From: a virus
Direction: 5' to 3' (one strand)
Virus record (IMG/VR): IMGVR_UViG_3300037502_000557
Coordinates: 1 to 20,344 of that record
DNA: 20,344 nt
The notes under the pieces are model-generated. The model was not told the origin of the DNA. It saw nothing but the letters and a program-made list of their open reading frames with translations, and did not search any database. Positions 4,591-16,427 of this stretch are shown one piece after another (positions within the stretch are counted from its first letter, which is position 1; each line of letters opens with the position of its first letter). The translations under genes were made by a program, and so were the position numbers.

Positions 4591-4781
4591 AGTTGTTTAT
4601 GAAAAACTTGTTTGTTCCTAAGAACAAAACACTAGACTGTGGTTGTCCTGAAAAGAAAGGGGGCTTGTTGTCTGTATGGAACTCAGGGCATAATACAGAA
4701 CACTATGGAAGTTTGTGTATAGATCACTTCCATGAATATAATGCAGAGATAATTACGGGAGTTGACAATGGCAGGAATTAG
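4587..4781 (+). CDS. Small Cys/His-containing protein, unknown function (GTG start)
   Basis: 64 aa from GTG 4587, which overlaps the previous stop as GTGA. The sequence includes LDCGCPEKK, then SGHNTEHYGSLCIDHFHEYN. Two Cys in a C-x-C pair, a later Cys and several His could bind zinc, but the spacing fits no family I know. The coding DNA returns to the window's usual lower G+C and carries a palindrome copy (4614). Its end overlaps the following small gene by 14 bases. Confidence 0.55.
   Translation: MKLFMKNLFVPKNKTLDCGCPEKKGGLLSVWNSGHNTEHYGSLCIDHFHEYNAEIITGVDNGRN
4614..4625. repeat. Dispersed palindrome copy 5
   Basis: GTTCCTAAGAAC near the 5' end of the 64-aa gene, read as V-P-K-N. Confidence 0.85.
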
Positions 4782-4929
4782 CGTGTGTCTAAGTTTTGTT
4801 GGTGGTTTTATGGTGGGTGTTGAGTTTGTTTGGGGCCACAAAGTAATGATAGTTGATTTGGGTATTATCAGACTTACGATTGAGTATATTTCACAAGATG
4901 ATATTGAGAAGGATGACAAATATGAATGA
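4768..4929 (+). CDS. Small putative membrane protein (53 aa)
   Basis: ATG 4768 follows GGGAG (4758-4762) at good spacing. The product begins MAGISVCLSFVGGFMVGVEF, a glycine-containing hydrophobic stretch long enough for one membrane pass or a signal peptide, then a short acidic tail (ISQDDIEKDDKYE). The stop overlaps the reductase start as ATGAATGA, which would couple translation of the two. It could be a small inner-membrane protein; a holin role is possible but cannot be shown, and its place among early or middle genes argues against lysis. Confidence 0.5.
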   Translation: MAGISVCLSFVGGFMVGVEFVWGHKVMIVDLGIIRLTIEYISQDDIEKDDKYE

Positions 4930-6559
4930 ATTTCGTAGCAAGTTGGGTGAGAATGTATTTAGATTTAAGTATGCACAAGGTCCAGCAGATACGTGGCAGA
5001 TGTGCTCTGATCGCATTGTAGATGATGTATGCGGCACACGTAACGGTAGGGAGCGCCCTCTTATGTCTGAGGGAGACAGGAAACAGCTTGCTCAATATAT
5101 CCGTGAGTTTAAATTCATTCCCGGTGGACGCTACATCTACTATGCTGGTAGGCCAAACAGCTTCTTCAATAATTGCTATCTGCTTCGTGCAGAAGAGGAT
5201 TCGCGTGAAGAGTGGGCTAACGTAGCGTGGCGTTCCACTAGCTGCCTTATGACAGGTGGTGGTATTGGTATTGACTACTCCATTCTGCGTGGTAAGGGTA
5301 AGGCTATCAAGCGCACTGGTGGCACTAGCAGTGGTCCTATTAGTCTTATGTGCATGATTAATGAGATTGGTAGGAATGTTATGCAGGGTGGTAGTAGGCG
5401 TAGTGCCATCTATGCTTCACTCAATTGGAAGCATGATGACATTAACGACTTTCTTATGGCTAAGAATTGGCCTGAAGAAGTGCGTGCTCTTAAGAACAAA
5501 GACTTCAATTTCCCTGCACAGTTGGATATGACCAACATTTCACTTAACTATGACAATGCATGGCTTCTAAAGGAGAGTAGACACAATGACAGCACCTTCC
5601 TCACAAACTGCCGACAAGCAATGGAAACCGGAGAACCCGGATTCAGCTTTAACTTCGATGATAAACAAAATGAAACTCTCAGAAATGCGTGTACTGAAGT
5701 TACTTCAGAGGACGACTCAGATGTTTGCAATCTTGGCTCGATTAACATTGGTGCCGTTGAGTCTCTTGATGAGTTTCGTAGCATTGTCCAGCTTGCTTCT
5801 AAGTTTCTGGTGTGCGGCACTATCCGCGCTGACCTTCCATATGGTCGAGTGTACGAAGTACGAGAAAAGAATCGCAGGTTGGGTCTTGGGCTTATGGGTA
5901 TCCATGAGTGGCTACTTAAAAGAGAGGCTGGATATGAAGTGACACCTGAGTTGCACAAGTGGCTCAAGGTGTACAAAGAGGATAGCGAGAAGAGTGCTAA
6001 CGAGCATTGTGACCGACTGTTCCTCAGTCATCCTGTAGCCTATCGTGCAATTGCACCTACTGGTAGCATTGGTATCCTTGCTGGTACAACCACTGGCATT
6101 GAACCCTTGTTTGCAGTGGCGTATAAGCGTCGCTATCTGAAAGATGGTACACGTTGGCACTATGAGTATTGCGTTGATGCTACGGCTGAAATGCTGATTC
6201 AAGACGGTATCAATCCTAACAAGATTGAAACAGCATATAGCTTGTCTAATCAGTTTGAGAAGCGTATTAAGTTTCAGGCTGACATTCAGGACTATGTTGA
6301 CATGTCTATTAGCTCAACCATTAATCTGCCATCTTGGGGTAGTGAGCACAACAACGAAAGCAAAGTGAACGAATTTGCTAAAGTGTTGTCGAAGTATGCA
6401 CCTAGACTGCGTGGCTTCACTGCCTATCCTGACGGTAGTAGGGGTGGTCAACCTATCACTGAAATGGACTATCACGAAGCTATCAAGCACAAAGGTGTAG
6501 TGTTCCAAGAGAATGACATTTGTGACATCAGTGGTAAAGGAGGTAGCTGTGGAGTGTAA
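4922..6559 (+). CDS. nrdJ: Class II (adenosylcobalamin-dependent) ribonucleotide reductase
   Basis: 545 aa from ATG 4922, preceded by AAGGA; an in-frame ATG at 4853 lies inside the preceding small gene and lacks a ribosome site. The enzyme reduces ribonucleotides to deoxyribonucleotides for phage replication. Visible are NNC (Cys85, first redox Cys), N255-A-C257-T-E259 (thiyl-radical Cys with its Asn and Glu), DVCNLGSINI (Cys269, second redox Cys), NRRLGLGLMG and APTGSIGILAGTTTGIEP (378 on, phosphate binding). There is no ATP-cone. The C-terminus has C534 and C543, a plausible thioredoxin-accessible pair with unusually wide spacing. No small subunit gene (NrdB) follows, which supports class II. 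It is shorter than most NrdJ proteins (typically over 700 aa). A palindrome copy lies at 5486. Confidence 0.9.
   Translation: MNEFRSKLGENVFRFKYAQGPADTWQMCSDRIVDDVCGTRNGRERPLMSEGDRKQLAQYIREFKFIPGGRYIYYAGRPNSFFNNCYLLRAEEDSREEWANVAWRSTSCLMTGGGIGIDYSILRGKGKAIKRTGGTSSGPISLMCMINEIGRNVMQGGSRRSAIYASLNWKHDDINDFLMAKNWPEEVRALKNKDFNFPAQLDMTNISLNYDNAWLLKESRHNDSTFLTNCRQAMETGEPGFSFNFDDKQNETLRNACTEVTSEDDSDVCNLGSINIGAVESLDEFRSIVQLASKFLVCGTIRADLPYGRVYEVREKNRRLGLGLMGIHEWLLKREAGYEVTPELHKWLKVYKEDSEKSANEHCDRLFLSHPVAYRAIAPTGSIGILAGTTTGIEPLFAVAYKRRYLKDGTRWHYEYCVDATAEMLIQDGINPNKIETAYSLSNQFEKRIKFQADIQDYVDMSISSTINLPSWGSEHNNESKVNEFAKVLSKYAPRLRGFTAYPDGSRGGQPITEMDYHEAIKHKGVVFQENDICDISGKGGSCGV
5486..5497. repeat. Dispersed palindrome copy 6
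   Basis: GCTCTTAAGAAC in the reductase gene, read as A-L-K-N. Confidence 0.85.
6538..6543 (+). promoter_or_regulatory. Ribosome binding site that fixes a GTG start
   Basis: AGGAGG inside the last codons of the reductase, five bases before GTG 6549. It favours this GTG over the in-frame ATG at 6513, which has no such site. Confidence 0.65.
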
Positions 6560-6752
6560 CGTTGTCCATCCTAAACACTACATTCAACACCCTAGTGGTG
6601 TTGAGTGTATTACGATTACGGAACACATGAACTTTTGTCTTGGAAATGCTGTGAAGTATATCTGGAGAGCAGACTTGAAAGGAGGAGTTGAAGACCTAGA
6701 GAAAGCTAAGTGGTATATTCAGCGAGAGATTGAGAAGCGTACCCGTTCTTAA
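6549..6752 (+). CDS. DUF3310 family protein (putative nucleotide-metabolism protein)
   Basis: 67 aa from GTG 6549. The body matches DUF3310: HPKHYIQHPSGVECITITEH, then GNAVKYIWRADLKGGVEDLEKAKWYIQREI. Members are common in phages and are often labelled nucleotide kinase-like, but the biochemical role is not established. The start overlaps the reductase end by 11 bases, so it may be made in step with it, consistent with dNTP metabolism. Its stop codon TAA lies inside a perfect palindrome copy (6745-6756), directly before the tRNA gene. Confidence 0.85.
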   Translation: MECNVVHPKHYIQHPSGVECITITEHMNFCLGNAVKYIWRADLKGGVEDLEKAKWYIQREIEKRTRS

Positions 6753-6756
6753 GAAC
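6745..6756. repeat. Dispersed palindrome copy 7 (over stop codon, beside tRNA)
   Basis: Perfect GTTCTTAAGAAC. Its central TAA is the stop codon of the DUF3310 gene, and its second half is noncoding. It ends one base before the tRNA. This copy cannot be explained by a peptide motif. Confidence 0.92.
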
Positions 6757-6757
6757 A

Positions 6758-6833
6758 GCCCTTGTAGCTCAGTTGGTAGAGCAGCGCATTTGTAATGCGA
6801 AGGTCGTGGGTTCAAATCCTACCGGGGGCACCA
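6758..6833 (+). tRNA. tRNA-Thr (anticodon UGU), CCA encoded
   Basis: Full cloverleaf of 76 bases. Acceptor GCCCTTG pairs with CGGGGGC (6823-6829) with two G-T pairs; D arm GCTC/GAGC; anticodon loop TTTGTAA with TGT at 34-36; T arm GTGGG-TTCAAAT-CCTAC; discriminator A; encoded CCA at 6831-6833. The first anticodon-stem pair is G-A (27-43), a mismatch. It reads ACA, a Thr codon used often in this window, so it may offset host codon bias during late gene expression. No integrase is present to suggest an attachment site. Confidence 0.93.
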
Positions 6834-6849
6834 ACATAAGGAGATAGTA

Positions 6850-7083
6850 ATGCGACTTACGTTTAGGAAGGAAGAAGATGGACGAGTTGTAGAGTTGTCA
6901 AGTGACTCAACCGATGACCTGTGTTTTTGGACAACCCAAGCAGATATGTTTATGGATTTTCTTAGGGGTCAATCGTATGTAATTCCATATAATAGGTTGG
7001 GTCATTACATTAACGACCGTTGGAATGAACGTATCAGTGCAGAAGCAGACAAAGAGGAAGAGAAGCAAGAGTCTGCTGATTAA
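6850..7083 (+). CDS. Small acidic protein, unknown function
   Basis: 77 aa, with AAGGAGA (6838-6844) before ATG 6850, 17 bases after the tRNA. The N-terminal half looks beta-rich (MRLTFRKEEDGRVVEL), followed by DLCFWTTQADMFMDFLRG and an acidic helix at the end (AEADKEEEKQESAD). No family recognised. It is probably expressed from the same transcript as the tRNA, and a weak hairpin follows it. Confidence 0.7.
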   Translation: MRLTFRKEEDGRVVELSSDSTDDLCFWTTQADMFMDFLRGQSYVIPYNRLGHYINDRWNERISAEADKEEEKQESAD

Positions 7084-7089
7084 CGCAAC

Positions 7090-7119
7090 AACACTCCGCG
7101 TTTAAGAGAGTGTTATTTT
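7090..7119 (+). terminator. Possible weak intrinsic terminator or processing hairpin
   Basis: AACACTC (7090-7096) pairs with GAGTGTT (7108-7114) around an 11-base loop, followed by ATTTT. The stem is short and the T run weak, so it may be an mRNA stability element instead. Confidence 0.4.
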
Positions 7120-7120
7120 A

Positions 7121-7127
7121 AAAGGAG
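7121..7127 (+). promoter_or_regulatory. Ribosome binding site that fixes the start at 7134
   Basis: AAAGGAG directly abuts an ATG at 7128, which is too close for initiation, and lies six bases before ATG 7134. Confidence 0.65.
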
Positions 7128-7133
7128 ATGTAT

Positions 7134-7337
7134 ATGTACACTGTGAAACGTAAAGGTGGTATCCCGACTGCTCTTAAGAACAAACTGTTCAAGACGTATG
7201 AACAGGCACGTAAAGCTGTTCGTGCTTGGCTGTACACACAGTTTAAGATGAAGCGTGTTCGTCGTGCTGCCGTAGACATCACCAATCGCACTGCTACAAT
7301 TGGTAACTACGGCTTCTCCATCAGCAAAGCGGGTTAA
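7134..7337 (+). CDS. Small basic protein, unknown function
   Basis: 67 aa from ATG 7134. It is strongly basic: VKRKGGIPTALKNKLF, YEQARKAVRAWLYTQF and KMKRVRRAAVDI, ending in beta-like TATIGNYGFSISKAG. This may be a small nucleic-acid-binding protein; I recognise no family. It is the last + strand gene, ending just before the hairpin where the two gene blocks converge. A palindrome copy (7170) lies near its start. Confidence 0.7.
   Translation: MYTVKRKGGIPTALKNKLFKTYEQARKAVRAWLYTQFKMKRVRRAAVDITNRTATIGNYGFSISKAG
7170..7181. repeat. Dispersed palindrome copy 8
   Basis: GCTCTTAAGAAC in the 67-aa basic protein gene, read as A-L-K-N. Confidence 0.85.
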
Positions 7338-7347
7338 TAAGAAAGTT

Positions 7348-7384
7348 CCTCTGTGTGTGCTGCTCTAAACAGTACACACAGGGG
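7348..7384. terminator. Bidirectional hairpin at the convergence of the two gene blocks
   Basis: A 15-bp stem: 7348-7362 pairs with 7370-7384, including two G-T pairs in the + strand RNA, around a seven-base loop CTCTAAA. It lies between the stop of the last + gene (7337) and the stop of the last - gene (7392). There is no long T run on either side, so termination may be inefficient, or the element may mainly protect 3' ends. Confidence 0.75.
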
Positions 7385-7391
7385 AATAACA

Positions 7392-8102
7392 CTATCTAGC
7401 AGGTTGTCTAACCATCCCTGTAACAGCGCCAGCAGTAGTGGTTGATACAGTGGGTCTAGTCTCAGTAGGTTTAGGTGCTGCCATTTCAGATTCAAACATT
7501 GTAGAGTGATGTTGTGCTTTACGTAGATAGTCAGCAGTTTCCCTACTCTTTGGCATCTGGTTCTTAAGAACACTATTAGCTTGTCTTGGTCCACCGTTGT
7601 AGTCAGCAATGGCGGCTACAATGTTTCCCTTATATTGTTTGTTCAACACATGGCTGAAGTAGTCAGCAGCAAACCAAACATTCTCCAGTGGATCAAGAGC
7701 ATTGTGCATCCACCTATTCTGCATCAGCTTCATAGTGGCATCAGTAAACTGCATAATGCCTCTAGCCTTTGCCTTACTTACAGTGGTGCTGTCGTTATTC
7801 TCATTCAGCCTAACTCCACCTGTCTTATCGAAGTAGCTATTCTCAGAATACAGAAGAGTACGCAGAGAGTCAGTAGGAAGTTCAAACTGCCTCTCCACTG
7901 TACGCACATAGTCAATGATACGCGGATCGTTCCACTTCAGTTTAGTACGCTCATCAACAGAAAGCGTTTCAAGCTCTTTCCACGAAGACATATCAGTGAT
8001 TCCTTTCCAAAATAAACTTGGAACAATAATAGTCATGCACCCAACTAATAATAGGACGAGTGTTAGTGTATAACATTTGCTGTGTTGTTTTCTTATATGC
8101 AT
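7392..8102 (-). CDS. Lytic transglycosylase (SLT domain), virion-associated
   Basis: 236 aa from ATG 8102. The SLT fold is clear: catalytic Glu87 in LLYSENSY, GIMQFTDATM (115 on), NVWFAADYFSHVL and AAIADYNGGP. It cleaves peptidoglycan glycan strands, most likely as an ejected virion protein opening the cell wall for DNA entry; in T7 this domain is the N-terminus of gp16. Residues 11-31 are hydrophobic and contain LVGC, a possible lipobox. A second start at 7991 (MSSWKELE) has a better ribosome site and would drop this segment (199 aa). The C-terminus has TAGAVTGMVRQ, shared with the upstream gene. It is the last gene of the - strand block. Confidence 0.88.
   Translation of the reverse strand: MHIRKQHSKCYTLTLVLLLVGCMTIIVPSLFWKGITDMSSWKELETLSVDERTKLKWNDPRIIDYVRTVERQFELPTDSLRTLLYSENSYFDKTGGVRLNENNDSTTVSKAKARGIMQFTDATMKLMQNRWMHNALDPLENVWFAADYFSHVLNKQYKGNIVAAIADYNGGPRQANSVLKNQMPKSRETADYLRKAQHHSTMFESEMAAPKPTETRPTVSTTTAGAVTGMVRQPAR
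7560..7571. repeat. Dispersed palindrome copy 9
   Basis: Perfect GTTCTTAAGAAC in the transglycosylase gene (- strand reads V-L-K-N). Confidence 0.9.
8001..8005 (-). promoter_or_regulatory. Internal ribosome binding site for an alternative start at 7991
   Basis: On the - strand GGAAAGGA (8001-8008) precedes ATG 7991 with nine bases between AAGGA and ATG. This is stronger than anything before ATG 8102, so a shorter soluble form may be made. Confidence 0.5.
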
Positions 8103-8111
8103 CAATACGCA

Positions 8112-10274
8112 TTATTCCGCTTGTTCTCTAAACCTACGCAAATTATCCGCTACTGAACCACTAGTTGCTGGAGCAGAAGGTTCTGCCGCAGGACGCCTAA
8201 TAGGTTGCACAGGAGTTTGATTAGACACCCCTTCAGGAGCAGTGCGTGCAGAAGGAGTGCGTTGACGTACAACACCTGTTACTGCACCGGCTCTTGTTTG
8301 TTCAAAACTCATTGTTGGAGTAGGTGGAACTGTCTCTCTATACAAATCAATCAAAGTTTCTTGTGCTCTAGTTGTACTTCCAGTGAGTTTGTTGTAAACT
8401 CTGAGTAGTTGGTTTGCCTTGACAACATCCGATTGCAGAATTGCCATCTGCCCAATCTCTTGTGACGTTGTAGGTTGCTTACCTGTAATAACAAGCAGAC
8501 CTTCAGCATTTGCCTCAATACGAACACCTGGAACGTTCTTAAGAACCTCGCGCCACTTAATAGGATAGGAGTTGGCATTGTTAGGTCCAAGCCAGAAGTC
8601 TGTACGCTGAACCAAATTCCTGTTAAACGTTTCCAAATCCACTTCATTAGGAAGTACAGTGGCTACCCTATTTTCCATTACAGATTGATAGAGAGCATTC
8701 CAAGATGCTTCGTTAGGAGTGAAGTTGCCAGCAAGCATAGTAGCTGCACTAGCACCCAACGATGTAGCTGGTGCCCTAGCATTCAGCACTTCAACACCTT
8801 TAGCACTCTGTAGTTGAATGACAGCAGCCTTTGCTTCCCTACCTGCCGGTGTGGTGTCAGCAGCCGCTGCCGCAGCAGCAGCTTCAGGACGCGCTGCAAC
8901 ACCCATCATACCTTCACCAATCAGTATCATTTGGTTCATTCTTTCAGAAAAAGTCCTTTGCCTACCTTCAATCAGTGCAGCAAGTTCTTGAATAGCAGGG
9001 TTGTTAGGATAGTCAGCAAGCATCTGCTTTCGTATACGATCATCTTTCATTTTAGAAATCAGGTCATCTGACCAAGTGCTCTTAAGAACAAGATCGCTAA
9101 CTTGTGCAGCCTTGAGAATGGTGTCAGCACGAACATTAGCATCAGTATAGTTTTTTCTCAATTCAGAAAGCATGTCATCAAGATCAGCAGTGAGAGGAGT
9201 ATTCTTCAACCTTTCGCTAATACGTTTCACGGTGTCATCAACCACTGTTCTATCCATAGTGGGATTAGACAAGATACGAGCACGCAGATCAGACTCAGCA
9301 GCAAGTAGGCTGTTACGTTCAGCACTTTTCATACGACGAAATGCATCTGTAATAGCTTCACGCTGTGCTTCTGTAGGACTAACCATAGTGTTAATATTAA
9401 TTCCCTTCTGTTCAAGCATAGAAAACACTTGTTGTGCTGCTTGTGCTCTAGCAGCACCAGCACCCACAATGGTAGCGTTGTAAAACTGATTCATTTCACC
9501 AGACGTTCTAACTTTATTTGAATTTTCAATAAGGTTTTGTGATTGCAGAATTGTGTTCATACGAACACCAGCGTCAGTGCCACGAGCAATATTTTCAAAA
9601 ACTTCTGCACTACTTCTCATACCAAATTGGCTACCTACACCAGATTCAAAAATCTTTTGAGCATCTCTTTCAAGTAGACGAAGTTGTGTTTTCCTAAACT
9701 CATCCTCTTTAGCTTTAGCTGTAAGAGCAGCTTCAATAGGACGAACATCCCAATCACCCCTACCTGTAACTTCATTAAACACTTTACGAATGTTCTGAGC
9801 TTGTCCGGGATGAGCAGCAATGAGTTGACGCATATCCGCTGTAAGCCGTGTAACAGCTTGATCTTGTGTAAATGTTTTTGCAGCTACAGCATCAGCTACA
9901 CGCTTTGCACGAGCTTCGTAATCTGTAACAACACTCCTATCTCCACCAGCATCAGACAATTCTCTAGCAAGTGTGCTTGTCTCAGCTTGTATAGTGCGTT
10001 GCGCTTCTTCGCCAATGAAGTCAGGAGTGAATAGGTTTGTAGCTACTTTTGTAGCAGCGTTCTGTGCTTCAGAAGCAACATACCCTTCATACACTTGTTT
10101 ACCCGTTTCAGTAGCAGCAGTGATTAGACCAGCCATAGTCTTACCACCTATTTCACTAGCCCTACCCATACTCTGTCCAGCTTGAACAAGCAGACCATAG
10201 TCAGCAGATGCAGGAGCAGGAGCGAGAGAAAGGTCGGGAGACATAAACTGCCCACCACGTTTTTGTTCAGCCAT
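8112..10274 (-). CDS. Internal virion / DNA ejection protein (gp15-like by position)
   Basis: 720 aa, with GGAG (10283-10286) eight bases before ATG 10274; the start overlaps the stop of the giant gene as TAATG. The sequence is mostly helical, rich in Ala, Gln, Thr and Arg. It has an Ala tract near residues 463-472 and a Pro/Thr/Ala-rich C-terminus containing RAGAVTGVVRQ (662-671). I see no enzymatic motif. By position among T7-type core genes it is the likely counterpart of T7 gp15, which is ejected and forms part of the tube across the periplasm; sequence similarity cannot be shown here. It carries palindrome copies at 8535 and 9078. Confidence 0.65.
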   Translation of the reverse strand: MAEQKRGGQFMSPDLSLAPAPASADYGLLVQAGQSMGRASEIGGKTMAGLITAATETGKQVYEGYVASEAQNAATKVATNLFTPDFIGEEAQRTIQAETSTLARELSDAGGDRSVVTDYEARAKRVADAVAAKTFTQDQAVTRLTADMRQLIAAHPGQAQNIRKVFNEVTGRGDWDVRPIEAALTAKAKEDEFRKTQLRLLERDAQKIFESGVGSQFGMRSSAEVFENIARGTDAGVRMNTILQSQNLIENSNKVRTSGEMNQFYNATIVGAGAARAQAAQQVFSMLEQKGININTMVSPTEAQREAITDAFRRMKSAERNSLLAAESDLRARILSNPTMDRTVVDDTVKRISERLKNTPLTADLDDMLSELRKNYTDANVRADTILKAAQVSDLVLKSTWSDDLISKMKDDRIRKQMLADYPNNPAIQELAALIEGRQRTFSERMNQMILIGEGMMGVAARPEAAAAAAAADTTPAGREAKAAVIQLQSAKGVEVLNARAPATSLGASAATMLAGNFTPNEASWNALYQSVMENRVATVLPNEVDLETFNRNLVQRTDFWLGPNNANSYPIKWREVLKNVPGVRIEANAEGLLVITGKQPTTSQEIGQMAILQSDVVKANQLLRVYNKLTGSTTRAQETLIDLYRETVPPTPTMSFEQTRAGAVTGVVRQRTPSARTAPEGVSNQTPVQPIRRPAAEPSAPATSGSVADNLRRFREQAE
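8535..8546. repeat. Dispersed palindrome copy 10
   Basis: Perfect GTTCTTAAGAAC in the 720-aa protein gene (- strand reads V-L-K-N). Confidence 0.9.
9078..9089. repeat. Dispersed palindrome copy 11
   Basis: GCTCTTAAGAAC on the + strand; the - strand gene reads V-L-K-S. Confidence 0.85.
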
Positions 10275-13200
10275 TATTTATTCTCCAACGGTTTAGATTC
10301 TGTAAGACCACGAGAGCGTGAAGTAGGTACATCTTTAATGTTCCAGCTACCTTCCAAATACTCAGCCCTAGTTTTTGTTTGATTGTCAATGAACGGTGCT
10401 GTAGCATAAACACCTGTAGGTTTCTTAACAAGTTGCCAAAAATACTCACGTTCACCAGCAGGTAGAGGTGTGTGTAGCGTCGTCATATAGTCAGTGAGTG
10501 CTTTGTAACGCTTGCTCTCACCTTCGTTCTTAAGAACATCCAAAGATATTTTTTCTGTTTCCAAATAGGTTTTAGCAAACTCTTGAATAGCTTTACGCCT
10601 ATCAGAAATGCTGAGTTTCAATCTCCAATACTCTTCATATGAAGAACTACCAATACCAATAGCTTGTGCTATAATTTCAGGCTTGCTAAGTGTCACCATC
10701 ACGGTGTTATCTTTACTTATAAGTTGACCATCATGTAGGTGTGTATAGTAGGCTTTGCTAGCGTTCCTCCAACCACTAAACACTTCTTTACCAACAGAAT
10801 TAATTGATTCAATAAATGCTTCAGCAGAAAGGTCTTTTCTAACAAGTGGAGCAACCAATGCAGTTAATGAACCGAGTCTAGTTACAGTACCGTAAGACGG
10901 TCCTAAAACAACAGACCAAAAATCACTATCGCCTTTCATTATTGCCGTAGCTGTTTTTTGATACCATTCAAACGCACCAAATTTACTACCGACAGCAAGT
11001 TTTAAATCCTCACCAGTGGTAGATTGACTAATCTCGTTAATCAATGCTGCAATAGCACCTTGACTTATTGCAAGTTTCTCATTGTCTGTAACATCCCTGC
11101 CAACAACATTCTCATAGCCACCAATGATTTCATCATATAGAGACATTAAACCATTGCCAGCAAGTCCGTATGCAGCCACATGGAACGCAAGAATACGAGA
11201 AGCATCTTCAGCATTGTATCCACGATAGATAGGAGGTTTACCAGTAGCTTTAGACTTAGCCCACGCTGTACCAGCACTGAGGATGTTTGCACCAAGTTTC
11301 AAGTTATATTGCAAAAACTGTCCGGGGATAGACAATACACCACGTTGATAGAATGCCAAGTTAGCACGAGACATATTTTGTGTCAGGTCATCAGTCCTAT
11401 ACAGAATATCTCTAAGAGCAGCATCACTATTCCAAACACCACCGGGGTTAGCATCAATCCAGTTTCTACGAGCAACATCAAAAGCTACTAGTCGTGCAAA
11501 CTCTTCACCACGATTGAAGAAGAATGCAGTTTTTTCACCAAGTTTGTTAAGCATTCCTGTGAATAGATTAAACCTACCTGTTTCAGCACCATGCATAGAC
11601 GTAGCCACAATACCGTCAAGCAAACCCGACCTACGAATACTGCTAACAAGAGACACAAACTCATCAGCATTAGAAAGGCCAAGTGTTGACAATTTTTCAA
11701 GTGTAGCAACACTTCTCCATACTTGAGGATTGTCACTCATTAGTGCTACACGCAACAACGGTGCAGTGTAAGCAGCTTTAAGTCCGTGTTTAGGAGACAC
11801 AGCAACAGCATTAATAGCACCACTAGCTTGCACAAGTAGCTGTGCAGGATTGAATGCAGCAAGCATTGTAAAGAAGTTAAAGCTACGAATAAACTGTAGC
11901 GGGTCAGCGTTCCTAAGAACATGTCCAGCAGTAATTAAACTATCACCAATTTCAATACCTGCAATTTTGGCATCACCAGACCATGAACTAGTAAAACTTT
12001 TCATAGCTGTTTCAATTAGTCGTTCATCATATGTTTTAACACCAAGCTGTGCAAGGATGTATTTACGCTGGTTTTCAGCAAAATTACCTAACTGATCTCC
12101 CTTTGTGTACACAGAAAGTTGCAATGCAGGGTCAGACATCACTGCTAGTGGAGACTTGTATTTGTTCCTAAGAGCAGGAGGCAGACTATCTGAGAACGTA
12201 TTCCACCATGTTTGCACCCACTTGTCGCGCCATTCATCAATGTTACGATGACGAGCAATGTTACTAATCTCTGCTTGAATGGCTTTAATAGGATCAAGAA
12301 TGTTGTTATTATCACTATCAATTGACTTGAGACGAATGCCCCTACCTTCAGCTTTATACAAGTCATCATCCCATTGTGCTTTAACCAATGTGTCTAAATA
12401 GGCATCCGATGATCTATCATAGTGGTTTCCAAACGAAGTGTAGTTGTCCCACTCACCACGCTGAATAGCTTGCATAATCTCAGCAGCATCTTCAAACCTA
12501 CCCAATTCTTTTTCTATGATAGAATGAGTAATACTGGTAGGATTGGTTTTATACATCTTAAGCAATCTATTCATACCTTCAGACCACTTGATAATATCTT
12601 TACCACTATTAGATGTACGAAGATGCAGCGTATCCTCAATTAATTCGCCATTTACAAGTCTGTTAATTTTTACATCACCAAAATAATCTTGTGTGTAATA
12701 ACGCCGGAATGTTCCGGGAGCATTAGGAATTTGATTACGCAGTCTACCAAACGACACAGTTGTAGAGTCACCAATAATGCGAGTGTACTCTTTACCACCA
12801 ATCATAATTGGTTTTGCAAGATCATAAACATTTAGTCCAGCAAGTTTAGCTGGATCAATACGCTCTTGTTTCTTAGACAGTATGTTGTATGCCAACCTAC
12901 CAGCATTCTCTGCCGTAGACACTACTTTTGCAGGAGCAAAGTGAGTTAGCAAACCATCTTTAACAAACCCTTGAGTAAATCCTTTTCTAGTCAAGTTCTC
13001 TTTAATAGTTTGGTTCTTAAGAGCAAGATCAAGGTTAGAAACAGTGCGATATGTAAAGTAGGCACGTTGTTCTTTTTCTGTAGTGAGGCCACGAGCAATT
13101 ATTTCAGGAACACCAAACTCTTTACCAAATGTATCACCCTCTTCAAGCACACTAATAACACGAGCATTTTGTTTTTTACCCAATCCTTTAAAACCACTGT

Positions 13201-15883
13201 TAAGCAAGTCATTAAGTGCTCTGCTATCTTTTTGTTCTTGAAGCATAGCAATAAACCTATCATGCACAGCCAAGTCAGATGCGCGATGAAGTGGATCACC
13301 ACCTAATGCAAACCTGCTATTAATCTCATTGGAAGTGTGTGTCATGGCTTTTCCAGCATGTTTGACATACCATCCGTGTGCAAGTGGTGCAGCTTCTTTC
13401 AAGTCTGTCTCAAAGATTTCAGTCATACGCTCAATTGAGACACCTTCTTTAGCCAGTTTATTAACCAGAGTTTGTTGGTCAGGGTCCATTGACTTAATCA
13501 GGCGAGTGCTTTGCTCAATCAGTTCTGAGTATGCATCAGCTTGTTTTGGAGGAATGCCAAGTGCTTTCAAGAACGTTCTAGTAAACGCATCCCAAGCATT
13601 CTTAAATATGCCAGCATTCTTATCATTTTGACGAATAGCCTCAACAGCTTCGTCACTGAGTTTAATATCTTTCAACAACTCAATAAACTCACGGCTGCTA
13701 AATCCTTCGCTAATCATTTCGTGAACATCTTTTAGTCCGTATATCTCACGATAGACTTCGCTAAGTTCTCCTTCAGCAACACGTTGACTAATCTGTGCGC
13801 GAACATCTTGGTAGATTTCACGAATGTTTTCAACCGCAGATATTTGTTCAGGACGTATATTTGCTATCTTACGTACTTTTTTACCACCAACACGCACAAC
13901 GTCAATAAGTTGTGAAACTGCTGCGTGCATAATTTCATGGAGTGTCAGACTAGTAGAACCAGCCAAACTTTCATGGAAATAAACAGTGTTATTTTTCCAA
14001 TGATATTTTCCTTGATAAGATTTAGCTTCATCAAGTTCGTTAATGCCAAGTTCTTTTGCAAGTTGTTTTGCATTTTGAAATGTTTTAATTTTTACATTGT
14101 CAAGTGCAGGTAGCTTTGCCAACATTCTTGCAAGTGCTTTTTGATCGGCTGTAGCTTGTTTACTTTTTGAAAGTTCTTCAAGCATACTTTGTGCGCTTAG
14201 ACGCCCCGGACCAGTCATTTCAAACAACCCTGTGCGTCCTTCTTCAAGAAGAAGTACCAACCTATCATCAATGTCATTTACAGTGTTAGTAAAACTAAAC
14301 CGACTAAGTTTAGTTGTAACATTGTCGTTAGCAGCAACAACGTCCCACTTCAACCCACTATTTTCAGACAATGTTTTAGCATATGCAATAGCATTGCCCA
14401 TATTCCTAAACGGATTACCACTAGGATGTTGAACAACCAATTCGTTTGTATCTAGATTGGCAGCAACAATGCTTTTAGAATACTTTTCCGTATACCTAGA
14501 AAGAAAGTCTTTTGTCTTAATAGCTTCAGGGTCTTCAGCCAAACGAATACGCTGATTCAGTGTTTCAAGTGTTTTTGTAAGAGCAGTTTCAAGTTCTGCT
14601 TGTGCTTTAGCAGACATGCCAACAACACCATCAGGCATGTATTGATTCAAGTCTGCCGAGATTGTGTAGCCAATTTGAGAACCATTGTCGGCACCCATCT
14701 TGTTTGTGCCATTGACAATATCTTTACCTAGCACTTTACCTGCTTCAGCAGATCCAACTGTTTTGGATGCAATCTTAGGCGCAGTGAAGGCTTTACGTAC
14801 AAGCCCCAATGCACCAGCAGTGTCTAGTCCAAGCCCCAACCTATCCAAAAACTGTTGTGTTTTAAGAGAGAGTGAGAATGTTTTCCAGTCATCCACTTCA
14901 AACTGATCTGCAAGGCGCATCACATTCAATACAGTGAACACCTTACCTACATCACCCGGAAGTGCTTCTTTGCTAGCAATGTAATCAAATACATCAGAAA
15001 TGTTCTTAAGAGCAGCTTCCGCTGGCATAGCCGACAACTTTTGTCGCCATTCAGCAATTTGTTCTGCGTAAGAAAATCCTGCACGACTCTTAACGCCACC
15101 TACTTTTTCAAGTGCATCAGGGATTGTTTTAAATGCATCATACGCAAACTTGCTACCAACACTAACACCAGCAACCAAACCCGGAACACCGCCAGCAACC
15201 ATGCCCACGTTAATAGGGCCGAGTATAGCCATGCCAAGTGTTCCAACAAATGCAGTGCGGTCTACAGCCAAACCTTTAGCCACCAGCAGTTTTTGAAGTA
15301 CTTCGGACATACCTGCCGTACTACCCAAATCAGTAGCTTCAATAAAGATTTTATTTACATTATTGTTTTCTAGTGTAGTAGGATTGGATGTTGCAAGATT
15401 AGCAGCAGCTTCTCTTGTAATTGTTGTAACATCTTTTTCTTTAGGTGCATCACTTACAGCAGCAGACAACTTATCAATGTATCGAGCATGTTTCTCTGCT
15501 TCAACAACCATGTTACGTGAAGCGGCAGCATCAAACATTTCTTTTTGTGTTTGAAGTTGGTTTACATACAAAGCAGCAGCATGTTCCCTAATGGTATTGC
15601 TACTAAACCCACCATCAGCCATAAGACGTTGATAGGCATCTTGATAGGTGAGTTTGCCTAGCGTAGCTGCTTCCAACGCAAGCGCCATTTGATTTACATC
15701 TTGCGTACCAACTTCAGGAGGTTGTGGTTTGGTAGCACCATTCTTATAAAGAATGTCATCTACTGTTTCAGTAGGAGTGTCCACAACACTTTGACCCGGA
15801 TGAGTAAGTGGTTGTGCTTCAATGTTGCTCAGATCATTATACGGAGTAGCAACTACATCAGTTGGTGCCATAGGTTCAGCCAT
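10274..15883 (-). CDS. Giant internal virion/ejection protein with zinc-metalloprotease motif
   Basis: 1869 aa, with AAGGA just ahead of ATG 15883. It is the largest gene in the window and sits in the place of the T7 core genes (gp15/gp16), longer than gp16 (1318 aa). Residues about 211-241 are glycine-rich and hydrophobic. H649-E-I-M-H653 in SLTLHEIMHAA is a zincin HExxH motif, and Glu722/Glu726 in HEMISEGFSS is a fitting third zinc ligand, a pattern seen in large polyvalent phage proteins. More hydrophobic stretches lie at about 1338-1368 (NPAQLLVQASGAINAVAV), 1564-1584 and 1654-1678, as expected for a membrane-crossing ejection protein. The inferred role is ejection into the host, a conduit for DNA, and possibly cleavage of a host or virion protein. 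It carries five palindrome copies. Confidence 0.8.
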   Translation of the reverse strand: MAEPMAPTDVVATPYNDLSNIEAQPLTHPGQSVVDTPTETVDDILYKNGATKPQPPEVGTQDVNQMALALEAATLGKLTYQDAYQRLMADGGFSSNTIREHAAALYVNQLQTQKEMFDAAASRNMVVEAEKHARYIDKLSAAVSDAPKEKDVTTITREAAANLATSNPTTLENNNVNKIFIEATDLGSTAGMSEVLQKLLVAKGLAVDRTAFVGTLGMAILGPINVGMVAGGVPGLVAGVSVGSKFAYDAFKTIPDALEKVGGVKSRAGFSYAEQIAEWRQKLSAMPAEAALKNISDVFDYIASKEALPGDVGKVFTVLNVMRLADQFEVDDWKTFSLSLKTQQFLDRLGLGLDTAGALGLVRKAFTAPKIASKTVGSAEAGKVLGKDIVNGTNKMGADNGSQIGYTISADLNQYMPDGVVGMSAKAQAELETALTKTLETLNQRIRLAEDPEAIKTKDFLSRYTEKYSKSIVAANLDTNELVVQHPSGNPFRNMGNAIAYAKTLSENSGLKWDVVAANDNVTTKLSRFSFTNTVNDIDDRLVLLLEEGRTGLFEMTGPGRLSAQSMLEELSKSKQATADQKALARMLAKLPALDNVKIKTFQNAKQLAKELGINELDEAKSYQGKYHWKNNTVYFHESLAGSTSLTLHEIMHAAVSQLIDVVRVGGKKVRKIANIRPEQISAVENIREIYQDVRAQISQRVAEGELSEVYREIYGLKDVHEMISEGFSSREFIELLKDIKLSDEAVEAIRQNDKNAGIFKNAWDAFTRTFLKALGIPPKQADAYSELIEQSTRLIKSMDPDQQTLVNKLAKEGVSIERMTEIFETDLKEAAPLAHGWYVKHAGKAMTHTSNEINSRFALGGDPLHRASDLAVHDRFIAMLQEQKDSRALNDLLNSGFKGLGKKQNARVISVLEEGDTFGKEFGVPEIIARGLTTEKEQRAYFTYRTVSNLDLALKNQTIKENLTRKGFTQGFVKDGLLTHFAPAKVVSTAENAGRLAYNILSKKQERIDPAKLAGLNVYDLAKPIMIGGKEYTRIIGDSTTVSFGRLRNQIPNAPGTFRRYYTQDYFGDVKINRLVNGELIEDTLHLRTSNSGKDIIKWSEGMNRLLKMYKTNPTSITHSIIEKELGRFEDAAEIMQAIQRGEWDNYTSFGNHYDRSSDAYLDTLVKAQWDDDLYKAEGRGIRLKSIDSDNNNILDPIKAIQAEISNIARHRNIDEWRDKWVQTWWNTFSDSLPPALRNKYKSPLAVMSDPALQLSVYTKGDQLGNFAENQRKYILAQLGVKTYDERLIETAMKSFTSSWSGDAKIAGIEIGDSLITAGHVLRNADPLQFIRSFNFFTMLAAFNPAQLLVQASGAINAVAVSPKHGLKAAYTAPLLRVALMSDNPQVWRSVATLEKLSTLGLSNADEFVSLVSSIRRSGLLDGIVATSMHGAETGRFNLFTGMLNKLGEKTAFFFNRGEEFARLVAFDVARRNWIDANPGGVWNSDAALRDILYRTDDLTQNMSRANLAFYQRGVLSIPGQFLQYNLKLGANILSAGTAWAKSKATGKPPIYRGYNAEDASRILAFHVAAYGLAGNGLMSLYDEIIGGYENVVGRDVTDNEKLAISQGAIAALINEISQSTTGEDLKLAVGSKFGAFEWYQKTATAIMKGDSDFWSVVLGPSYGTVTRLGSLTALVAPLVRKDLSAEAFIESINSVGKEVFSGWRNASKAYYTHLHDGQLISKDNTVMVTLSKPEIIAQAIGIGSSSYEEYWRLKLSISDRRKAIQEFAKTYLETEKISLDVLKNEGESKRYKALTDYMTTLHTPLPAGEREYFWQLVKKPTGVYATAPFIDNQTKTRAEYLEGSWNIKDVPTSRSRGLTESKPLENK
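10526..10537. repeat. Dispersed palindrome copy 12
   Basis: Perfect GTTCTTAAGAAC near the 3' end of the giant gene (- strand reads V-L-K-N). Confidence 0.9.
11909..11920. repeat. Dispersed palindrome copy 13
   Basis: GTTCCTAAGAAC on the + strand; the giant gene reads V-L-R-N. Confidence 0.85.
12164..12175. repeat. Dispersed palindrome copy 14
   Basis: GTTCCTAAGAGC on the + strand, the only copy with two changes from the perfect palindrome; the giant gene reads A-L-R-N. Confidence 0.75.
13013..13024. repeat. Dispersed palindrome copy 15
   Basis: GTTCTTAAGAGC on the + strand; the giant gene reads A-L-K-N. Confidence 0.85.
15002..15013. repeat. Dispersed palindrome copy 16
   Basis: GTTCTTAAGAGC on the + strand; the giant gene reads A-L-K-N. 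Confidence 0.85.
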
Positions 15884-15887
15884 TTAT

Positions 15888-16427
15888 TTATCCTTGCATC
15901 GGCGGTGCGGGGAAACCAGCCGGACGTTGTGTTGATGCAGTTTGACTAAAAATATTTTTAAATCCACCTGTTTGACCAAAGATGGTTCCACCAAGATTGG
16001 CAAAAGCAGCACCTTGTGCAGCTTGTCCAGCAGCAGCCCCATAGTCAGCTTGTGCTTGACCAATGAGTGCAGCTTGTTGCCCCATAGCGGCTTGTGTAGA
16101 AGCAACGTCGGACATGTAGTTAAGATTAGCAGCTTGTTGTGAACCTAGTGACGCCAGTCCACCAGCAACACCACTACTACCTAGTGTCCCTGTAGTAGCA
16201 CCACGCGCTGTTAGTGCAGCAGAAGCAGCATAACGTTGACGCAATTGTTGCCTCACTGCACGAACGTTTTGAATCTCAGCTTGTTGTTGAGAGATACGAA
16301 ACTGTTCTTGTTGAGCAGCAGCTTGCCTACCCATAGCTTCTTTCTGTTCTTGACCAGCTTGGTATTGTTTATATGTTCCTGTAGCAGTAAGAGCCAGTGC
16401 TGTAAGTGTAAACGGATCAACTCCCAT
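15888..16427 (-). CDS. Internal virion protein, T7 gp14-like
   Basis: 179 aa, with a strong AAGGAG (16434-16439 on the - strand) before ATG 16427. A short hydrophobic N-terminus (DPFTLTALALTATGTYKQY) is followed by a Gln/Ala-rich helical region (AAAQQEQFRISQQQAEIQNV) and a Gly/Ala/Gln-rich second half, ending QRPAGFPAPPMQG. This composition and length, and the position after the adaptor, nozzle and gp13-like genes, are typical of the gp14 family. T7 gp14 is ejected and forms the pore in the outer membrane. Identification rests on composition and gene order more than on a motif. Confidence 0.75.
   Translation of the reverse strand: MGVDPFTLTALALTATGTYKQYQAGQEQKEAMGRQAAAQQEQFRISQQQAEIQNVRAVRQQLRQRYAASAALTARGATTGTLGSSGVAGGLASLGSQQAANLNYMSDVASTQAAMGQQAALIGQAQADYGAAAGQAAQGAAFANLGGTIFGQTGGFKNIFSQTASTQRPAGFPAPPMQG

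Follow-up and report, generated by a model that had tools for sequence, protein, structure and literature searches.

A lineage-specific peptide match between the tails of a transglycosylase and an adjacent putative ejection protein in a Zobellviridae-like podovirus

Ejection modules and the locus compared with them

T7 gp16 (gp16-N) combines a transglycosylase domain with a following flexible 'molecular tape' that keeps the gp15 tunnel assembled (PMC8954989). The locus considered here lies in a 20,344-nucleotide stretch of viral DNA (IMG/VR record IMGVR_UViG_3300037502_000557; the whole stretch is termed the window) and resembles this arrangement in that its internal virion set pairs a transglycosylase (TG) with a helical protein of about 700 aa (p720, 720 aa), and in that a flexible segment beyond the TG domain could attach to the conduit protein. 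Unlike T7 gp16, however, the window TG is a separate small protein; T7 gp15 shows no sequence match to p720, and no T7 counterpart was found for the ten-residue peptide that TG and p720 share. A second comparison is offered by the capsid targeting sequences of T4 and P1 (IPIII, Alt, DarB), short peptides that are common to internal virion proteins or sufficient for their packaging. These sequences are N-terminal and are cleaved off in T4, whereas the window peptide lies near the C-terminus and is not conserved among close relatives.

Zobellviridae carry ejection modules in which a small internal protein, a giant protein, a 600-800 aa protein and a peptidoglycan-cutting protein are encoded in succession, and the window shows the same gene order, with a homologous giant protein. 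Examples of the internal virion module in this family are CRP-5 gp39-gp38-gp37 and GX1 ORF17-19. The gene after the 600-800 aa protein is gp37 in CRP-5, annotated as a lytic transglycosylase, and the peptidoglycan-cutting position in T5S1 is held by ORF64, with a phage lysozyme domain; the positional counterpart of p720 in GX1 (804 aa) shows, close to its C-terminal end, an SLT match that falls below threshold. The Zobellviridae modules differ in that their tails contain no AGAVTG-like peptide and in that p720 is not detectably homologous to its counterparts by sequence. Eight Zobellviridae loci yielded no tail peptide common to neighbouring module proteins. A short repeat also occurs in another virion transglycosylase, Roseobacter phage CRP-5 gp37, which has an N-terminal peptide repeated twice (ANFWDNDEVVPV / ANFWDKDEVIPA; L027 12518-13192).

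The late genes of the window, encoding tail and internal virion proteins, run on the minus strand from 20319 down to 7392 and are faced by a plus-strand early operon comprising part of a DNA polymerase, exonucleases, a sigma-like factor, ribonucleotide reductase and tRNA-Thr. The tRNA-Thr (TGT; 6758-6833) lies a short way downstream of the reductase region, close to where the two gene sets meet, and is present in the three related contigs described below as well (L001, L003, L004). The giant internal virion protein (1869 aa; 10274-15883, minus strand) matches PHROG 12003, 'internal virion protein' (E = 1.6e-47), and gives tblastn matches to Zobellviridae members, while a 179-aa protein (15888-16427, minus strand; PHROG 8168, function unknown) stands, by gene order, where the small internal virion protein would be expected. 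Judged by giant-protein homology and gene order, the source is a Zobellviridae-like podovirus and the module is of the Zobellviridae ejection type. TG and p720 are probably carried inside the virus particle.

Pfam recognises an SLT domain in TG (7392-8102, minus strand; E = 1.4e-14), and the protein also matches PHROG 342 (E = 4.9e-15), annotated as 'internal virion protein with endolysin domain'; weak fold neighbours of its model include lytic transglycosylases and 7k5c chain B, from the T7 ejectosome tunnel. Its start may lie at 8102, which includes an N-terminal hydrophobic helix, or at 7991 (MSSWKEL). The frame is open upstream of MSSW/MPTW in all four loci compared and encodes a hydrophobic helix there (window 8102-7992, minus strand; L003 867-1000; L001 3359-3518; L004 5941-6061), overlapping, in a different frame, the last part of the upstream gene in L001, L003 and L004. 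The window helix, LTLVLLLVGCMTIIVPSLFW, includes a lipobox-like LVGC. This stretch is possibly an N-terminal membrane anchor or an alternative start, with frame bias as the other option.

p720 (8112-10274, minus strand) has no Pfam or PHROG match. Its model, at pLDDT 53.5 too poor for a verdict on the fold, is mostly helical with a disordered C-terminal tail, and among its Foldseek neighbours are phage proteins containing LT_GEWL and F1D0W4 of ICP2. By its gene position, p720 is probably a protein of the ejection module. The p720 homologues of L003 (840-997) and L001 (3360-3516) have an extra conserved end segment, SLTKEQ..AYNKQ.TVKGK..VLLDAGVDRS.IEQLVRRPI..ILAG, that is missing from window p720 (window 8112-7992).

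The peptide pair

The shared peptide reads AGAVTGMVRQ near the end of TG (7433-7404) and AGAVTGVVRQ in the tail of p720 (8291-8262), both on the minus strand; the plus-strand translation at either site is nonsense. The original prediction was right about the location of the pair and its identity at nine of ten residues. It had also placed both copies near the C-terminus. In TG the peptide lies three to five residues from the end and only PAR follows; in p720 it spans about residues 662-671 of 720 (zero- or one-based count) and is followed by 49 residues, so that TG alone has it at the extreme C-terminus. BLASTP lengthens the match slightly, to 13 of 19 residues (PTVS--TTTAGAVTGMVRQ / PTMSFEQTRAGAVTGVVRQ; E = 0.005 for the pair). 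Both copies fall in low-confidence stretches of the models (TG residues 209-236 and p720 residues 647-710, pLDDT < 50) and are predicted to lie in disordered C-terminal tails.

The codons of the TG peptide are GCT GGC GCT GTT ACA GGG ATG GTT AGA CAA and those of the p720 peptide GCC GGT GCA GTA ACA GGT GTT GTA CGT CAA, with 20 of 30 bases identical. As had been noted originally, seven of the nine identical residues use different codons, the same codon recurring only twice (ACA and CAA). Independent codon draws would give 3.7 such coincidences (P(<=2) = 0.21), and copies dating back no further than the divergence from the nearest relative would give so few with P(<=2) = 0.07; the earlier view that the peptide is not a recent copy holds. 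Differing codons alone do not, however, prove selection, because an old duplication or copy and convergence give the same pattern.

Related contigs and constraint on the copies

Three related viral contigs encode close relatives of TG, 66-78% identical, and the comparison covers four related genomes including the window (L003 is the same contig as L002, L017, L024 and L034). In L003, TG is 78% identical and its tail (...PTVAETPAGAVTGMVKPVDSKKERVLSYDANGRRVYLY) keeps AGAVTGMV without RQ, and the p720 homologue is 71% identical and lacks the peptide (...YQGTPAPVAGVRPAQVFNQTPVQPIRG versus ...YRETVPPTPTMSFEQTRAGAVTGVVRQRTPSARTAPEGVSNQTPVQPIRR in the window). Neither protein carries it in L001, nor in L004, whose p720 counterpart is similar only in its N-terminal part (28%). 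The p720 copy of the window belongs to an insert, some 20 residues long, that is missing from the two closest homologues (L001 and L003). A search for the GAVTG pattern in the records of the three relatives gave no further copy, and within the window the 1869-aa and 179-aa proteins have none, leaving TG and p720 as the only internal proteins with the peptide.

A DNA pattern scan of 2.9 million viral contigs found AGAVTGMV in 17 stretches and AGAVTG-hydrophobic-V-x-Q in one. A widespread motif was rejected, as only L017 among these stretches is a transglycosylase and the rest belong to unrelated contexts. No new related contig came from scans that used the alignments of TG and of p720 or the proteins of L003 and L001; genome contigs gave no further relatives, plasmids nothing relevant, and in a phage collection the only TGs were distant and p720 was absent. 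No paper describing the AGAVTG peptide as a phage protein motif was found in the literature.

Between the TGs of the window and L003, the core is identical at 136 of 164 residues and the tail outside the motif at 12 of 27, while AGAVTGMV is retained at eight of eight despite four silent changes (motif versus rest of the tail, Fisher P = 0.005 from one pairwise comparison). This comparison gives modest support to constraint on the TG copy. Selection on the p720 copy finds no support, both closest homologues lacking the peptide together with the surrounding insert. The proposal that the peptide is under selection therefore has modest support for TG and none for p720, where no homologue keeps it.

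The persistence of the peptide in homologues, a check put forward in the original prediction, went against it, the peptide being absent from one or both proteins in all three relatives. A shared docking or packaging tag in its general form is thus not supported, and a general virion or capsid-targeting tag was rejected: L003 keeps the peptide in TG only and L001 and L004 in neither protein, and such a tag should occur in most packaged internal proteins, of which the 1869-aa and 179-aa proteins have no copy. The other role first suggested, a maturation protease cleavage site at which the tails of TG and p720 are removed, is very improbable. Ejection proteins of some large phages are indeed cut by head proteases at a short motif (PMC7411985), and the tail position of the peptide would suit such processing, but a cleavage site should be conserved along with its protease and these relatives do not conserve it; a cut in TG would remove only a few residues, and no protease gene is seen in the window, which does not include the head end.

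The window and L017, its nearest relative, are, by sequence comparison, mosaic genomes. Their DNA identity is 87% in the early region (4614-7388) and 76-79% over TG and p720 (7409-8974), and in L017 these parts are separated by roughly 4 kb of additional DNA that encodes a Gly-rich 1089-aa protein. The tail of L004 TG (6061-6903) contains an insert some 75 aa long (DGLPARRNADGTYSTEVSITVTNPKLNGGRPTNIPSLWGG...) that is 39% identical to a protein of Sinorhizobium phage PBC5, DarB-like by one record's annotation; the insert is matched by PHROG 938 (endolysin) and read as a mobile module.

Module exchange in the tails of the TG and p720 genes, as in this PBC5-related insert, bears on a further explanation, in which a tail segment was copied long ago between the neighbouring genes by recombination or duplication and now persists as a largely neutral remnant. 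The extension of the similarity to 13 of 19 residues with one gap and the local insert in p720 relative to L001 and L003 are compatible with such copying. The DNA, however, shows no similarity beyond that forced by the shared residues (20 of 30 bases), the synonymous sites are as different as random codon choice would make them, and a neutral remnant of such age should not retain nine of ten residues; old copying is rather unlikely.

Docking and coincidence as readings of the match

Judged from the sequences, the match between TG and p720 is real and lineage-specific rather than a general tag, with a putative docking role. The reading tentatively preferred is that of a lineage-specific short linear motif in the disordered, fast-evolving tails of two neighbouring ejection-module proteins, perhaps docking both on one partner. 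In both tails the motif would serve as a weak docking peptide for this common partner, for which p720 itself, the giant internal virion protein and the portal region are candidates, and the free-standing TG would thereby be loaded and ejected together with the conduit protein, much as gp15 is bound in T7 by the tape behind the TG domain of gp16. We infer that p720 of the window lineage may have gained the motif of TG for the same partner. Docking is favoured by an identity of nine of ten residues, far above that of shuffles and rare in other ORF pairs, by the position of both copies in low-confidence tails, by the retention of AGAVTGMV in L003 TG, by the T7 precedent of a tape linked to TG, and by the adjacency of TG and p720 in an ejection module whose gene order is that of Zobellviridae; the absence of the p720 copy from both near homologues, of both copies from L001 and L004, and of any copy from the 1869-aa and 179-aa proteins argues against it. 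As one or both proteins do without the peptide in relatives, the docking contact must be accessory or replaceable, and the peptide would be at most a local accessory contact, not an essential tag. An extended version, in which matching tail motifs tie TG to the ejection conduit as a quickly replaced 'same-address' label and each phage lineage evolves its own peptide pair, is improbable. If real, docking would show how the enzyme stays with the conduit in podoviruses whose TG is split from the giant ejection protein. At present, the match is a small, lineage-specific one with a single supporting relative, and it matters little.

Coincidence and neutral old tail exchange are serious rivals of a docking motif. 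In the former, the same ten residues would have arisen by accident in two fast-evolving disordered tails rich in A/T/P/V/Q, and the p720 copy would be functionless, which is somewhat unlikely. The expected number of 10-mers matching at nine or more positions is 1.8e-5 (about 2e-5) for the TG/p720 pair, from the composition of both proteins or from shuffles, 4.7e-6 for the two tails alone and 0.0018 when every one of the window's 276 gene pairs is counted, among which the next best reach 7/10. Among 2709 ORF pairs from 19 loci, which include the window itself (L023), only two pairs besides TG/p720 reach 9/10, one of them the fibre-type LP-AGGAMTG repeat. Per window, the match is probably not pure chance, and the adjacency of the pair, the position of both copies in tails and the conservation of the TG copy in L003 likewise speak against coincidence. 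Tails, however, turn over fast and gain unrelated pieces, the p720 copy lies within an insert not common to its homologues, and a scan of very many windows would meet matches expected at about 0.002 per window several times; a few matches of such quality are expected from a scan of thousands of windows. The LP-AGGAMTG repeat, common to two consecutive proteins of L013 (414-3255), is a superficially similar motif of the fibre type and was judged unrelated to the AGAVTG peptide.
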